The notes: generated by a model not told the origin, from the sequence alone. Counted from the stretch's first letter, positions 36,815 through 46,761 are shown. The stretch: 64,000 bases of DNA from Exiguobacterium antarcticum DSM 14480 (GCF_000685865.1 NZ_JMKS01000003.1:1240001-1304000); one strand, 5' to 3'. Translations and numbers: made by a program.

Positions 36815-36854
36815 AACAAGCATCCTCATTCTGCCCGTGAGGATGCTTGTTTTT
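36813..36854. terminator. bidirectional terminator hydrolase / ferric reductase-like gene
   Basis: Stem AAAACAAGCATCCTCA / TGAGGATGCTTGTTTT between convergent genes; it overlaps the last codons of the minus-strand gene. Confidence 0.9.
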
Positions 36855-37401
36855 GGGGTGTCTTTACTTTTGGGCGCAGCTGCATCCGGTACAAAATGAA
36901 GGTGAACAAGGTGAGTGTCGAACACGCATACCAAACGGTCGTGAAGAGCGTCCCCGTATCCGTTCCGATGAAGATGCCGTGGAGTGTCATCAAGCCCCAT
37001 GCCGGTAAAACTAACCAGTGTGTTAATTTCCATAACGTTTTTCCTAATGTTTCTTTCAGGAAATCAGAAGTGACCAAGACAAAACCAAACAGGTAGAGAC
37101 TGATGGTTCCGAAGGCGTTCCAAAGTGGTTCATATGAGGCCTTGCCTGGGATCAAGATCTCAAGAAGCGTCAACGGTGCGTACGTATCGACGACGATTAA
37201 CGTCGCGTGTAGCACAATCGCCAGCAATCCAGCCCAGCCGCTGTAGAGGTGAACGTTGTGGAGGCGTGCCTTCTGTTTTTTGAGCTGTGGGAAAGAGCCC
37301 AACAATCCGGCCAAAACGGATAATGTCAGAAAAAAATGACCGGTCAGTCCACTTAAGCGGATCATCGTCCATGTCGAAAATAACCACTTCATCCAGTCCA
37401 T
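36826..37401 (-). CDS. ferric reductase-like transmembrane haem protein
   Basis: Membrane protein of 191 residues with five or six hydrophobic segments and paired His suitable for b-type haem (HNVHLYSGWAGLLAIVLHATL; THWLVLPAWGLMTLHGIF), as in the ferric-reductase-like/MsrQ (YedZ) family. It should move electrons across or within the membrane. It overlaps the ApbE gene by 13 bases on the same strand. Confidence 0.82.
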   Translation of the reverse strand: MDWMKWLFSTWTMIRLSGLTGHFFLTLSVLAGLLGSFPQLKKQKARLHNVHLYSGWAGLLAIVLHATLIVVDTYAPLTLLEILIPGKASYEPLWNAFGTISLYLFGFVLVTSDFLKETLGKTLWKLTHWLVLPAWGLMTLHGIFIGTDTGTLFTTVWYACSTLTLFTFILYRMQLRPKVKTPQKQASSRAE

Positions 37402-38279
37402 ATTGATTGTCCTCCCTTCTCTTCTGCTACCATTTTTCCTGAGTCATCCATCAACAAGAGTCGTCCGTTTGGAAACCATTTAAATAATTTGTCTTGCCGC
37501 TCTGTCTCGGTCATTTGAAAAGCGAGCTTCGTCATGACTTCTGCCTCATAGAGTTGTGGTGCTGACGCCGTGATCTGAACGTACCGTGTTTCAATCGGTC
37601 GTCCCGTCTTTCCACTCAGCAGATGATGGTTCGTCCGCTCGCCTACTTTCCACGAACGGTAAATCCGGTTCGATGTCGCGACTGCTCCTTGCCGTAGCCG
37701 AACTTCTGCGATGGCCTGTTCTGTCTGCGGGTCCGTGATGGCGATTTTCCAAGGATGCGCATCAGACCAGACGATGACGTCTCCTCCTGCTTCAATCAAA
37801 CCACGTGTATGACTTTTTCGAAGACGTTGTGCAACAATCATCGCTGCTGCGCCCTTTCCGATTCCGCCTAAATCAATCGAACCACCACCGACTCGTGTCA
37901 CTTCGCATCCTTCTACCAGAAACGGGCTGATGTCAGGCGGGACCGTTCCTTCGATTTCGGTCGCAGCGTGGAAGGGAAACGATCGATCATACCCATTGGC
38001 ATATTGTTGTTCCAGTAGGAAGGGCGAAAAGTAATGTTCCGTCTGCTCAAAATAACGAATCGCACGTTGTAATAAGCGCGCCAGTGGTAAGGACACCGTC
38101 AACGATTGACCAATCAACAGTCGGTTCAACCGGCTGATCTCACTTGCCGGATCAAAGCGGGACCACTGACGATCGACATATTGAAAAAAGTGATGGATGG
38201 CTTGCCACTCCTTATCTAAAATCGGTTGATCGGTGACGAAACGAATGATATTGTGCATCGAGTACAATTGACGATCCAT
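37389..38279 (-). CDS. apbE: FAD:protein FMN transferase (ApbE family), no signal peptide
   Basis: Protein of 296 residues. ApbE motifs: DLGGIGKGAAA, LIEAGGDVIVW, AVATSNRIYRSW, HHLLSGKTGRP and a C-terminal EAEVMTKLAF where the Mg-binding region lies. ApbE links FMN to Ser/Thr of target proteins. Most ApbE proteins are secreted lipoproteins; this one starts directly at the fold (MDRQLYSMHNIIRFV) after AGGAGG and has no export signal. It is followed by the haem membrane protein and preceded by the acidic membrane protein, all co-directional. Confidence 0.87.
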   Translation of the reverse strand: MDRQLYSMHNIIRFVTDQPILDKEWQAIHHFFQYVDRQWSRFDPASEISRLNRLLIGQSLTVSLPLARLLQRAIRYFEQTEHYFSPFLLEQQYANGYDRSFPFHAATEIEGTVPPDISPFLVEGCEVTRVGGGSIDLGGIGKGAAAMIVAQRLRKSHTRGLIEAGGDVIVWSDAHPWKIAITDPQTEQAIAEVRLRQGAVATSNRIYRSWKVGERTNHHLLSGKTGRPIETRYVQITASAPQLYEAEVMTKLAFQMTETERQDKLFKWFPNGRLLLMDDSGKMVAEEKGGQSIWTG

Positions 38280-38291
38280 ATAGTTCACCTC

Positions 38292-38606
38292 CTATTTCGA
38301 ATGACTGGATTGTCCATCACTTCCACCACTCGGCTGGTCAAATCCGGATGTGTCATTGCTTTGCCATGCTTCATCCTCATCTTCCGCTTCGTAATATCCA
38401 TCCTCATCCTCCGATTCTCCCCACTCATCGTCATCGCCTTGAGAGGGTTGAGTCGGAATCGTCGTCTCATCGGAATACGAATCGCCGGTCTTCACCGGAT
38501 TCGTTGGTTGGTCACCCGAAGCGACACTCAACTGTCCGATTGCAAGACCTAAAAAGATACTACTGCTTAACCCAACAATCCATTTTGCAACTGGTTTTGG
38601 TTTCAC
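38292..38606 (-). CDS. single-pass membrane protein with acidic extracytoplasmic tail, GTG start
   Basis: Protein of 104 residues when begun at the GTG 9 bases after GAGGAG: positive N-terminus MKPKPVAKW, one membrane segment to about residue 28, then a tail with about 20 Asp/Glu residues (GDDDEWGESEDEDGYYEAED) and a Gly/Ser/Gln end. A longer frame upstream has no ribosome binding site. It ends 12 bases before apbE. No canonical flavinylation motif (S/T-G-A/S-S/T) is visible, only NDTSGFD. Function unknown; possible metal or cation binding. Confidence 0.7.
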   Translation of the reverse strand: MKPKPVAKWIVGLSSSIFLGLAIGQLSVASGDQPTNPVKTGDSYSDETTIPTQPSQGDDDEWGESEDEDGYYEAEDEDEAWQSNDTSGFDQPSGGSDGQSSHSK

Positions 38607-38655
38607 CTTTTTCCTCTCCTCTCGTTTCCTGTTATCTTTACTGTAACGATAAAAA

Positions 38656-38671
38656 CTGACAACTAGCTGAT
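38656..38671 (-). promoter_or_regulatory. candidate response-regulator box, ApbE operon side
   Basis: Minus strand ATCAGCTAGTTGTCAG, a direct repeat of WTCAG-type pentamers 11 bases apart, followed after exactly 10 bases by the -10-like TACAGT. The same box precedes the DUF2231 gene (40568-40583). It also lies between the divergent start of the two-component genes. Confidence 0.65.
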
Positions 38672-38718
38672 ACCAACTATGGGATAATAAGAAAAAATAC
38701 AGAACGGGAGGAATCAAG

Positions 38719-39396
38719 ATGCGGATTTTGATTGCAGAAGACGATGAGCGTCTCGCTAAAATGTTACGCCTCCATCTCGAACGTGCCGGTTATCAAGTCG
38801 ATGTCGCACACGACGGAATCCAGGCGCTCGAACAATGCCAGACGTTTCGATATGACTTACTTGTCCTCGATTGGATGATGCCGTACAAAAGTGGCATCGA
38901 AGTCGCAACCGAGTTACGTGGAGAACGCTTTGAAGGCGGGATCCTCATGCTGACGGCACGCGATACGGAAATTGATTTGGTCCATGGTCTTGACAGCGGT
39001 GCCGATGACTACCTCGTTAAACCGTTTCAGGCAAACGAACTTTTGGCCAGACTCCGGGCACTGAGCCGCCGTCAAAAAAAAGCATTTGTCTCGCTTGTTT
39101 CCTATCAGGGACTTGAACTCGATATTACGACACAAACGATTGCGTATGCCGAGCACCCCCTTGACTTGACGCGACGTGAGTTCGAATTTTTATCGTTGCT
39201 CCTCCGTCGTCCGGAACAAGTCATGGGACGTGAATTGATCATCGAGGTCGTCTGGGGAATCGGGGCTGACATTACCGATAATGCCCTCGATGCACTCGTC
39301 CGACTTGTGCGAAAAAAATTAGAGGCTGTTGGTGCCCCCTCGCTGATCAAAACGGTCCGTGGTTTTGGTTACCGCCTTGGTGGTCCCCATGCTTGA
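38719..39396 (+). CDS. OmpR-family response regulator
   Basis: Regulator of 225 residues. Receiver domain with AEDDER, phospho-acceptor Asp in LLVLDWMMPYKSG and Lys in DYLVKPFQ; OmpR-type winged helix with LTRREFEFLSLLLRRPEQVM and ending VRGFGYRLG. Divergent from the acidic protein-apbE operon and coupled to the kinase gene, which begins inside its last codons. I infer that it binds the TCAGCTA-type box found in this intergenic region and before the DUF2231 gene. Confidence 0.95.
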   Translation: MRILIAEDDERLAKMLRLHLERAGYQVDVAHDGIQALEQCQTFRYDLLVLDWMMPYKSGIEVATELRGERFEGGILMLTARDTEIDLVHGLDSGADDYLVKPFQANELLARLRALSRRQKKAFVSLVSYQGLELDITTQTIAYAEHPLDLTRREFEFLSLLLRRPEQVMGRELIIEVVWGIGADITDNALDALVRLVRKKLEAVGAPSLIKTVRGFGYRLGGPHA

Positions 39397-40561
39397 GACG
39401 ATTCGAAAACGTCTGACGTTATTGTTCAGTGGCACGTTTTTGCTGTTGCTGATCTTGATCTTATTAGGTGTTTATTTCACGACGGCTCGCCTGCTGGATC
39501 AGACCGAGTTGAATCAATTAAAATCGGTTTCCGACCGGGAACTGTTTGAACGAATCGAACATGGCGAAGATCGGTTGATTCGTGATCCCATCTTTTTTCA
39601 AATTCTTGATTCCGACGGCACAGAACGATATGCACGCCTCCCGGATGATCTCTCTAAAAAAACAATTGACCGCTTCGTTTCTTCTGACACGGAAACACAA
39701 AAGCTCGAACTAGAAGATCGACATTTTTTGCTGTATCAACGCAACACGGATGAAAACGGTTTGATTGTCTTGATGAAGGATATCTCCGCGACAGAAGATA
39801 CGCTGCAACGTTTAATCGCGATGCTTTTTGGTATTACGGTTCTTTCTACACTCGTTCTGATGGGCATCAGTTATGTCTTGGCCGGCCGTTCGGTTCTACC
39901 GGTCCAGCAGGCGTTTGATCGACAACGACGGTTTACGTCGGATGCCTCGCATGAATTACGCACACCGTTGACGATTTTATACAGCGGAATTGAGTTGCTT
40001 GAAACAGAACCACTGAGCACGGAAGGGAAAACGATTTTATCGGATTTAAAAGCAGAAACGGCATCGATGCAATACTTAGTTTCCGACTTGCTGCTTCTTG
40101 CCCGGGAAGGTCACCCGGGTCCGATGTCATCACTTGATTTGAGTACACTCGTTACACAAACCACTGACCGGTTCCGTCATACAGTAGTCGGTCGTACACT
40201 CCACCTTGACGTCGCTCCAGGCCTATTAGTAAAGGGGGATTCGAACCAGTTGATCCGTCTGTTGACCATCTTTTTGGAAAATGCGGTCGCTTATAGTGAT
40301 GCCGATATTGAGGTGACGCTACAACAAACGCCATCCGATGTCCGGTTGATGATTGCCGATCAAGGAATCGGGATTCCCCCAGAAAATCAGGATAAGGTGT
40401 TTGAACGGTTTTTCCGTGGAGACCATGCGCGACACGGATCAGGTACGGGTCTCGGTCTTGCGATTGCCCGTTCCATTGCTGAAGCGCACGGAGCCACGAT
40501 TCTCTTGGAGTCGACCCTGCACCAAGGAACTCGTTTTACGATTCTTTTTCCAACTCCTTGA
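39389..40561 (+). CDS. sensor histidine kinase
   Basis: Membrane kinase of 390 residues. Membrane segments at about 9-30 and 145-168 flank an extracytoplasmic sensor of about 115 residues; then H-box SDASHELRTPLTILY, N-box ENAVAYSD, G1 DQGIGIPPENQ and G2 GTGLGLAIARS. It starts at the ATG overlapping the regulator's stop codon, so translation is coupled. Signal unknown; the neighbours suggest a redox or metal cue. Confidence 0.95.
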   Translation: MLETIRKRLTLLFSGTFLLLLILILLGVYFTTARLLDQTELNQLKSVSDRELFERIEHGEDRLIRDPIFFQILDSDGTERYARLPDDLSKKTIDRFVSSDTETQKLELEDRHFLLYQRNTDENGLIVLMKDISATEDTLQRLIAMLFGITVLSTLVLMGISYVLAGRSVLPVQQAFDRQRRFTSDASHELRTPLTILYSGIELLETEPLSTEGKTILSDLKAETASMQYLVSDLLLLAREGHPGPMSSLDLSTLVTQTTDRFRHTVVGRTLHLDVAPGLLVKGDSNQLIRLLTIFLENAVAYSDADIEVTLQQTPSDVRLMIADQGIGIPPENQDKVFERFFRGDHARHGSGTGLGLAIARSIAEAHGATILLESTLHQGTRFTILFPTP

Positions 40562-40567
40562 TTGTCC

Positions 40568-40583
40568 GTCAGCTAACTGTCAG
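40568..40583 (+). promoter_or_regulatory. candidate response-regulator box before DUF2231 gene
   Basis: GTCAGCTAACTGTCAG, 13 of 16 bases identical to the box at 38656-38671, and again followed after 10 bases by a -10-like hexamer, TAAAGT. Confidence 0.65.
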
Positions 40584-40637
40584 ATAGCTCAGGTAAAGTA
40601 ACAGTATGTTCTTAATACTTACCGAGGAGGTCTTTTT

Positions 40638-41051
40638 ATGTTAGCCGGTGTACCGCTTCATCCATTACTTGTACATGCGCCAATCGCTCTTTTATTATTT
40701 GCAACGATTCTGTTGGTATTCAGTCTGAAATGGGTACAAGCTAAACTGTTTGCCTTGATTACTTTATTTGCCGGTCTCCTGTCCGGCGTCGCTGCTTATT
40801 TATCTGGCGACGGAGCAGAAGAATATGCAGAAGCCAACCTCAGCAGTGCGACGCATACGGCCATCGCGAATCATGAAAATTTCGCATTGTTCAGCCTCAT
40901 TGCCTTTGGAGCCGCTTTTGTTCTCCTGTTGCTCGGCTACCGCTCCAACAAAAAAACAATGCTCATGCTGAGTTTGCTCATAGCGGTCGTCGGAAGCGGC
41001 TTGCTTGCCTATACGGGTCATCTCGGTGGACAGATGGTCTATGCCAAATAA
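40638..41051 (+). CDS. DUF2231 family membrane protein
   Basis: Integral membrane protein of 137 residues with four membrane segments. Conserved His residues occur in VPLHPLLVHAPIAL, ATHTAIANHENFA and YTGHLGGQMVY, compatible with haem or metal binding (inference). It lies after the kinase gene and has its own promoter region with the box shared with the ApbE operon. RBS GAGGAGG. Confidence 0.87.
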   Translation: MLAGVPLHPLLVHAPIALLLFATILLVFSLKWVQAKLFALITLFAGLLSGVAAYLSGDGAEEYAEANLSSATHTAIANHENFALFSLIAFGAAFVLLLLGYRSNKKTMLMLSLLIAVVGSGLLAYTGHLGGQMVYAK

Positions 41052-44376: not shown

Positions 44377-46761
44377 TTAACGATGGATCCAGACCGCTCC
44401 AGCAGAGTTATCTTTCGCTTCACCGATGACTTGAATTTGAAGACCGTTTTTCGGGAGCAGTTTTCCTGCATCCGGGATCAACTGATTGATGTACGATTTT
44501 GAATCATTAAACGTCGTGACACCAGCAAGTCCTTTGTAGTCATACAGACCACGTGTCGGAGAATCGATGACCCAAGCCGGTGCTTTATCATAGCTGAAAG
44601 CAGCATCCGCGATTTGGTAACGTGTGCTTCCTGCAACGACCGGTTGTCCTTTGAGCGTTCCAACGATTGCTTCAGGGTGCGAATCGACGACACCGAGGAA
44701 TCCTTCACCCGGGTGAACACCAACCCAGTTATCCGTAAAGCTGTTATCAGCATACCAGACGACAAGACCTGTGTTGTATTTGACACCACGTGCATGCTCA
44801 AGTGCTTTATCTGAGCCTGCATAGTTCCGCCATTCGAGGTAGTAGGCGTTATCTGCATAGCTGAAACCATCCGAAGCGACAAAACCGTCTAATTTAAACT
44901 TCGGTGTGCCTTCTGCATCGTCTTCAAAGACGACTTTTCCGTCGACTGTCAATTTTGCGTTATCAAGCGCAAAACCGTCAAGGGCAAGACCGGCATCCCC
45001 TGTGTAGTCAAACGTCAATGTGACTTTTTTGCCGGCAAATTCACTGAGGTCGTATGATTTGTCGACCCATGCACCTTTTGAAGATTCGGCACGTTGATCG
45101 CCATCCGTATCTTCGTCACCAATCACATCGATAACTTTTGATACGCCGTCAGCTGTTGCCGTGACTTTCAAGAAGTCATAGTCAAATTCGACATCGAAGT
45201 AGGCTTTGTAATCAAATTTCGCAGCTTTTGCTGCCGTCAAATCGAATTCAGGTGATGTCATGGACGTATGGAGATCGTTCCCTTTTGTGCTGTAATAATA
45301 TTTTTTACCGAATGCCGGTGCAATCCCTTTGACCGGTTTTTTCGGCAAGTTCACTTTGATGATGCCTGGATTTTTAGATTTCGTGACACTTTGATCCAGG
45401 TATGAAGCCGTTCCTGCTTTTGAGAGCGAATCAAAATCGACGTTTTGAATGTTCGCCCAGTTTCCGCCCATCACATTTTGGAAGAACTCCTTGTTTTGTG
45501 GTGAGAAACTGGTTGGTTCTGTTCCGGCAATGTTTCCGTTCCAGCTACCACCACTCATGATCGACCATGAGGCAACCGGCTCGCCTTGACCTGTGTACTG
45601 TGTATCGTACTCATCTGGAAGCCCAAGATCATGACCGAATTCGTGTGCGAAGACTCCGACTGCTCCATCTTCTGGTTGAACTGTGTAGTCATAGGCTGCC
45701 ATCTTGCCGCCCCAGTTCGTCGAGTTTGAAGTCGTGTTCGCAACCGGATAAACACCATCGAGTGTCCAGCGGTGTGACCAAATTGCGTCGTCACCGAGCG
45801 TACCACCACCGGCTTCCTGTCCCGTACCCGCATGGATGATCATCAAGTGATCGACAAGGCCATCCGGTTCGTTCAATTCACCGTCTCCATCGAGATCGTA
45901 TAGATCAAATTTGTCGTAGTCTGCTAAATTGATTCCTGATTTGACCGCTGCATTCAATGAATCCTTGACGAGACCCCGTGGTCCTTTTGCTCCCGGAAGG
46001 TTATCGTTACCACCTTTAGGATTATCTGAACCATAGTCTTTTGCCGTCCCTGGAACCGTCAACCAGTTCGAGACGGTACCATCAACAGAGTAGCTACCAC
46101 CAGACTGTTCTTCATAGTATTGTTTGAACGTCTTGACCTTGTCGCCATTAAATAGTTCAAATTCTTTATCACCAAACATTAAGTCTTGATAATGTTTTTG
46201 GTTGAAATCCTTTGAATACATGTAGCCTTCTTCTTGGACGACGTTGTTATGCTTGAAGTCATTGTACTCAACGAGTAGAACGAGTACTTCATCTGTCCGA
46301 GTAGAGCCATTATAAGTCGCTTGTTTGGCTTTATCGACTTTGACAAACCCATCTTTTTTCCCTTTTTTGTAATTGTTATGATTTTTAGCGAGCTGTTTTG
46401 CGAGCTGCTCTTTTTGTTTCGTCAAGAAGTCTTTTGTTTTTTGATCAAATTTCGCTTCTTTTTCCGACTCATGATCATGATCTGCTTCCGGTTTCCCGTT
46501 TGCCTTTTTATCAAGATATTTTTGAACCGCCTTTTGTTTTTCAGCTGCAGATGCTGCTTTTGAGACGACCCCACGTTTTTCCAATACTTTCAATAAACGT
46601 TCCTGATCAACCGTATTTAAATCCATCGGTGCGCCGGCTACTGATTTTTCAGCAGCTTCAACAGATTTTACCTTCCCACCAGGTAAAACTGGACCAACGG
46701 CAAAAGCGGCTGCCGTAATTCCGGACAAGACGGCTAAGCTAAGCTGTTTCTTTTTTCCCAC
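44377..46761 (-). CDS. secreted M6-family metalloprotease (immune inhibitor A type), GTG start
   Basis: Exported protease of 794 residues. N-terminal signal peptide ([20 protein letters not shown]), a propeptide rich in Lys and Glu, and an M6 catalytic domain with [14 protein letters not shown] (zinc His residues and catalytic Glu). Calcium-binding Asp-rich segments ([14 protein letters not shown]) precede it, and a MAM-like/VCBS-type C-terminal half follows. Initiates at GTG after AGGGGG. It probably degrades external proteins. Single gene. Confidence 0.93.

Follow-up and report, generated by a model that had tools for sequence, protein, structure and literature searches.

Which protein receives the flavin where an ApbE flavin transferase carries no export signal? 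The question is raised by a gene cluster at positions 36826-41051 of a 64,000-nucleotide (nt) stretch from Exiguobacterium antarcticum DSM 14480 (genome size 3.2 Mb); the whole stretch is referred to as the window, and all positions are counted along it. In the order of translation, the minus strand encodes an acidic membrane protein, the ApbE, and a ferric-reductase-like membrane protein of the MsrQ/STEAP/NOX type (FRD), while the divergent plus-strand genes encode a response regulator, a sensor histidine kinase, and a DUF2231 membrane protein. An initial annotation of this DNA had pointed to a four-family cluster (acidic protein, ApbE, haem protein, DUF2231) and called it a possible undescribed module. 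The cluster exists, all its genes being found, and the papers searched contain no description of such a module of ApbE and a ferric-reductase-like protein. Judged from the sequence comparisons below, the cluster is likely a module that passes electrons across the membrane by way of a flavin, with a carrier of a new type, and the acidic protein is most likely the flavinylation target, via its C-terminal tail.

The ApbE and the tail protein

The ApbE (37389-38279, minus strand) matches PF02424 with 130.9 bits against a cut-off of 25.6 (E 8e-38), and its model (predicted local distance difference test, pLDDT, of 93) gives TM-scores of 0.81 to 1VRM and 0.84 to FmnB (7F2U). The enzyme has no signal peptide, as had been annotated: the fold begins directly at the ATG (38279), which sits 12 nt past the stop codon of the acidic protein gene. 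The catalytic set of ApbE comprises Ser, His, and Asp (S241, H257, and D285 in the Vc enzyme; PMC12052999). The window enzyme keeps S203 and H219, and the alignments place E247 at the Asp position. Four residues after this catalytic acid, K251 replaces the Thr of classical enzymes, a Mg ligand in the T. pallidum ApbE structure. The Lys is invariant in the Bacilli alignment, and enzymes of this signal-less Lys type (K-type) are present in Bacilli, Actinomycetota, Chloroflexota, and Patescibacteria. It is combined with Glu or Asp in 112 of 135 ApbE loci, drawn from 80 named records and a Bacilli sample; the scan for the named records was seeded with the peptide IDLGGIGK, so that this set is enriched for the Lys type, and the Bacilli sample was not seeded. 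In a quick tree, with a few Glu-Thr rows placed among the Lys type, the Asp-Thr enzymes and three Bacilli Glu-Thr enzymes form one group with the Lys type outside it (support of 98 in the Shimodaira-Hasegawa-like approximate likelihood-ratio test, SH-aLRT).

The acidic protein is encoded at 38292-38606 (minus strand). The long TTG start given for it in the list of open reading frames (ORFs) is spurious, since both the alignment of the genus and the ribosome site point to GTG at 38606, for a protein of 104 residues with 22 Asp/Glu within the 76 residues following the N-terminal transmembrane segment. The Ser/Thr-containing acidic linker ends in the tail D-G-Q-S-S-H-S-K (38298-38318 for the codons of D-G-Q-S-S-H-S). 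The canonical ApbE site is D-x-x-[ST]-G-A-[ST] (PMC12052999), and the tail fits the relaxed form D-x-x-[ST]-x-x-[ST], with the Asp and both Ser residues in place and Gly-Ala replaced by Ser-His. The acidic residue and the two Ser are constant across the genus alignment (the Asp is a Glu in E. flavidum), and the mean conservation is 0.89 in the last 8 columns versus 0.66 in the drifting linker. From this alignment, the penultimate Ser (codon 38298-38300) is the proposed acceptor of flavin mononucleotide (FMN). An internal D-x-S-G-F stretch was rejected as a site, as the residue at its Ser/Thr position differs between genus members. The initial annotation had found no clear FMN-attachment motif and suggested cytoplasmic flavinylation of an unseen target. 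The first statement holds for the strict motif but not for the relaxed one, which forms the C-terminus of the Asp/Glu-rich anchored protein that does occupy the expected place; the second fits as far as the compartment is concerned, but the target would be this protein itself.

A Lys-type ApbE is almost always encoded directly after a small protein (median 133 residues) with one N-terminal transmembrane segment and a low-complexity linker. In loci outside the genus, this protein does not keep its acidity, its linker being rich in Ala, Ser, Thr, Gly, and Pro, and the tail is retained. The ends seen are TGAS, SGAS, TSAS, TRAS, THAS, TKAS, TRRS, SRRS, TRGS, SSHS, and similar. Tail statistics were calculated for 101 non-redundant Lys-type loci, in 86 of which an adjacent upstream transmembrane ORF was assigned by rule, with shuffles of the last 30 residues of the tail proteins as the control. 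In 50 of the 86, the very last four residues are a tetrapeptide of the [ST]xx[ST] type (shuffles: mean 2.4, maximum 9), and in 73 it lies within 8 residues of the C-terminus (shuffles: mean 17, maximum 29); among other transmembrane ORFs of the same loci it is found in 8 of 359. The exact [ST]GA[ST] is present in 18 tail proteins, and the full canonical site in L162 (DFRSGAS) and L169 (DGRTGAS). Position -6, which precedes the tetrapeptide by three residues, is Asp or Glu in 28 of 81 proteins (p 2e-13) and His in 15 of 81, both far above their frequency in the tails. Within the subfamily, the metal-site Lys is accompanied by the relaxed motif, which may indicate a changed binding of pyrophosphate and tail.

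Some loci show variants of this arrangement. Upstream of the tail gene, L050, L075, L078, and L096 encode another small anchored protein, with TTGAS, TVTGAS, or a similar sequence ahead of an acidic or His-rich C-terminus, and some of these loci may have two carriers. The adjacent upstream ORFs of L089 and L105 end in a Cys variant (CKGSKCP/CTGSKCP), with the usual tetrapeptide missing. At L052, L069, and L109 the ORF before the ApbE is strongly acidic, calcium-binding-repeat-like, and without the tail motif. In Neobacillus (L037:4996-5643) and Anoxybacillus (L042:4985-5623), acidic/His-rich secreted proteins with Cu_amine_oxidN1 precede the tail gene.

Among the targets searched for, no other known one was found. 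The genome encodes a single ApbE, and its search gave no FMN_bind, NQR2_RnfD, or DUF2271, nor any known ApbE substrate domain. FMN_bind is present in 0 of the 19 Exiguobacterium genomes, and a motif scan for DxxSGAT revealed no domain-type substrate beside a Lys-type ApbE. The survey was extended to 399 Bacilli genomes, where the Lys type was taken as a score of at least 170 bits, a threshold checked on fetched loci. FMN_bind occurs in 0 of the 63 genomes with a Lys-type enzyme as the sole ApbE and in 38 of the 67 whose sole ApbE scored as non-Lys. All 22 Lys-type genomes that hold FMN_bind also have a second ApbE, and in several of them (e.g., G038, G182, G254, G126, G127, G137) FMN_bind is located less than 1 kb from this second, low-scoring match. 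There is no need to regard the small protein as an FMN_bind protein with a lost domain, since nearly all Lys-type relatives are without FMN_bind.

Topology, the haem protein, and regulation

The N-side flank of the transmembrane segment is the more positive one in 76 of 81 tail proteins, favouring the N-in orientation. Several relatives carry additional domains. In L166 and L170 a peptidoglycan-binding domain (PG_binding_1) lies between the transmembrane segment and the tail; the same place is taken by DUF2271 in L149 (1234-1971), beside a Lys-type ApbE; and in candidate phyla (L100:4667-5911 and L111:4761-5840) a reductase domain binding flavin adenine dinucleotide (FAD) and nicotinamide adenine dinucleotide (NAD) is fused before the transmembrane segment of a protein with a flavinylation-like tail, beside an ApbE of the Lys-type group. 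These domains indicate an outer location of the tail and connect it with electron transfer. DUF2271 is a proven ApbE substrate domain (PMC8238504), and L149 links this kind of known domain with the tail class.

The FRD (36826-37401, minus strand) scores 27.5 bits against PF01794 (E 3.6e-6), 0.5 below the cut-off of 28. Residues H51, H65, H128, and H141 are invariant over all relatives, with spacings of 14 and 13 as in the bis-haem proteins MsrQ, STEAP, and NOX, and the FRD is predicted to be a bis-haem b protein; H22 and H48, conserved in the genus only, were not accepted as haem ligands. The best fold matches of the model (pLDDT 91), all of them weak, are STEAP1, STEAP2, and NOX, and no NAD or FAD domain is present. 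In Bacilli the Lys-type ApbE is found nearly always beside the haem protein. In Anoxybacillus, the kinase gene is followed by one for a further acidic membrane protein, similar to a b-type cytochrome (L042:9393-9944).

The complete gene set is found in the same order in 15 of the 19 Exiguobacterium genomes. In G021 (locus L032) and G033, the block of ApbE, tail protein, and two-component genes is deleted between the FRD and DUF2231, which makes them ready-made natural mutants; G029 has only an FRD remnant and G030 no gene of the cluster. Outside the strain, the co-occurrence of tail protein, ApbE, and FRD holds across phyla, but DUF2231 is a module member in Exiguobacterium alone and is missing from the module in Neobacillus, Anoxybacillus, Geobacillus, Paenibacillus, and others.

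The two-component system consists of an OmpR-family response regulator (38719-39396, plus strand; PF00072, PF00486), divergent from the tail protein gene, and a sensor histidine kinase (39359-40561, plus strand; PF00512, PF02518). They are followed by the DUF2231 protein (40638-41051, plus strand; PF09990, E 7e-12), whose several conserved His, mentioned in the initial annotation, are H8, H13, H79, and H128 in the alignment. A direct repeat, GTCAG[CT]TANNTGTCAG, is common to the divergent promoter and that of DUF2231 in almost every member of the genus (in E. flavidum it is weak or missing). In the window, the putative response-regulator sites are ATCAGCTAGTTGTCAG at 38656-38671 (minus strand), in the divergent promoter, and GTCAGCTAACTGTCAG at 40568-40583 (plus strand), upstream of DUF2231. 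With at most one mismatch, GTCAGYTANNTGTCAG is present at 2 places in the 3.2-Mb genome, namely both promoters of the cluster, and nowhere else. Because the two promoters share this site, DUF2231 is probably in the regulon of the two-component system, in agreement with the earlier proposal of a common regulon.

We infer the following sequence of events. Using FAD as the source, the cytoplasmic ApbE would attach FMN to the penultimate Ser in the tail. The tail protein, N-in/C-out as suggested by its charge and by the domains of its relatives, would then hold FMN outside the membrane on a flexible acidic tether; flavinylation would precede export, so that FAD would not be needed outside. The FRD, as its haem ligands and gene linkage suggest, would carry electrons across the membrane to the tethered FMN, with quinol or cytosolic flavin/NAD(P)H as the possible donor, and the FMN could swing to its acceptor on the outer side, possibly a metal ion kept close to the acidic stretch. 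The shared sites support control of its own promoter region and of DUF2231 by the two-component system, with DUF2231 as a probable accessory His-bearing membrane protein in Exiguobacterium.

Elsewhere in the window, 44377-46761 (minus strand) encodes a large secreted protein, probably an immune-inhibitor-A-like metalloprotease by motif, which is unrelated to the module.

Alternative explanations

Several points weigh against flavinylation of the tail by the Lys-type enzyme. The Mg-ligand Thr is a Lys throughout the subfamily, and therefore catalysis could be lost. An FMN-bearing tail would have to cross the export machinery. Ser/Thr motifs easily arise in Ser/Thr-rich tails, which is the reason for the shuffle controls, and the adjacent ORF has no matching tail at L048, L052, L069, L089, L097, L105, L109, and L155. 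Finally, single changes of the Gly or the Ala approximately halve flavinylation by classical ApbE (PMC12052999), and here both are replaced, by Ser-His.

One alternative is that the Lys-type ApbE is a pseudo-transferase, which would bind both FAD and the tail through non-covalent contacts and would serve the haem protein in the cytosol as its flavin subunit or as a docking partner. Such a role would suit the invariant Lys at the Mg-site position, the missing signal peptide, and the haem protein that nearly always adjoins in Bacilli, but the enzyme retains the catalytic Ser and His together with an acidic residue, the tails converge on a covalent-attachment motif (including the exact DxxSGAS) with the acceptor Ser kept, and the tail is predicted to be outside the membrane; we regard this explanation as unlikely. 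Less probable still is that the acidic protein serves as a cation-binding anchor for metal reduction, as had been suggested initially, but without flavin and with the ApbE acting on an unrelated protein. The 22 acidic residues of the linker and the recurrence of acidic/His-rich secreted proteins (with Cu_amine_oxidN1 in L037 and L042, acidic in L052, L069, and L109) agree with an anchor of this kind; however, beyond the genus the small protein keeps its tail but not its acidity, and no known ApbE substrate domain was found in the genome. The description as a cation-binding anchor is incomplete, since the relaxed motif forms the very C-terminus of the protein. Least probable of all is that the tail serves as a signal for sorting, proteolysis, or assembly, with an indirect link to the ApbE, as its very C-terminal position and variable letters might suggest, for three positions coincide with the ApbE site and the pattern tracks the Lys-type subfamily over several phyla.

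Relation to known flavinylated systems

For tail flavinylation in general, the evidence leans, with somewhat less confidence than for the module itself, towards a widespread undescribed branch, in which cytoplasmic Lys-type ApbEs would flavinylate bare C-terminal tails at a relaxed [ST]xx[ST] before export, and the small anchored proteins would be domain-free outer carriers for ferric-reductase-like haem proteins. If this is true, a tail-only carrier would account for many signal-less or orphan ApbEs, a bare peptide can act as a natural electron carrier, and the order of flavinylation followed by export makes an FAD exporter no longer necessary. In the literature searched, with subscription papers and preprints outside its scope, no description of tail-type or orphan ApbE substrates was found.

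The extracellular electron transfer system of Listeria and Enterococcus (FmnA/FmnB, PplA) resembles the present one in having a Gram-positive FMN transferase of the ApbE fold and an outer FMN carrier; there, however, FmnB is exported and PplA bears FMN_bind domains, and neither trait is seen here. In the known ApbE substrates, a folded domain bears the flavin (FMN_bind, NqrB/RnfD, DUF2271, DUF3570, or flavodoxin-like); the large surveys (PMC8238504, PMC11334425) and a review (PMC12052999) describe these and FMN-reductase substrates. The MsrQ-like flavinylated systems (PF01794, ApbE, and FMN_bind; Meheust et al. 2021, PMC8238504) likewise have a ferric-reductase-like bis-haem protein beside ApbE and an outer flavin carrier, but typically with an FMN_bind protein in the cluster. 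The window has the PF01794 protein, and in the genome no exported FMN_bind, NqrB/RnfD, or DUF2271 substrate was found; instead, the ApbE is signal-less and the proposed substrate is a tail with no flavin domain. For a cluster to be retained in that survey, one of four target genes had to encode a signal peptide or lipidation site, and therefore the signal-less ApbE/tail type would be dropped; in 4% of genomes the apbE remained an orphan, and substrates were said to await discovery (PMC8238504). With MsrQ, STEAP, and NOX, the FRD has in common the bis-haem His pattern and a weak fold match, but it has no NAD/FAD domain, and there is no MsrP. Signal-less transferases are also known from the cytoplasm of Klebsiella and kinetoplastids, where, unlike here, the enzymes act on soluble fumarate reductases that contain an FMN-attachment domain (PMC12052999). 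The tail has an artificial parallel: for the seven-residue Flavin-tag, as cited in that review (Tong et al., in PMC12052999), a short terminal peptide is enough for flavinylation, and the present tails would be its natural counterpart.

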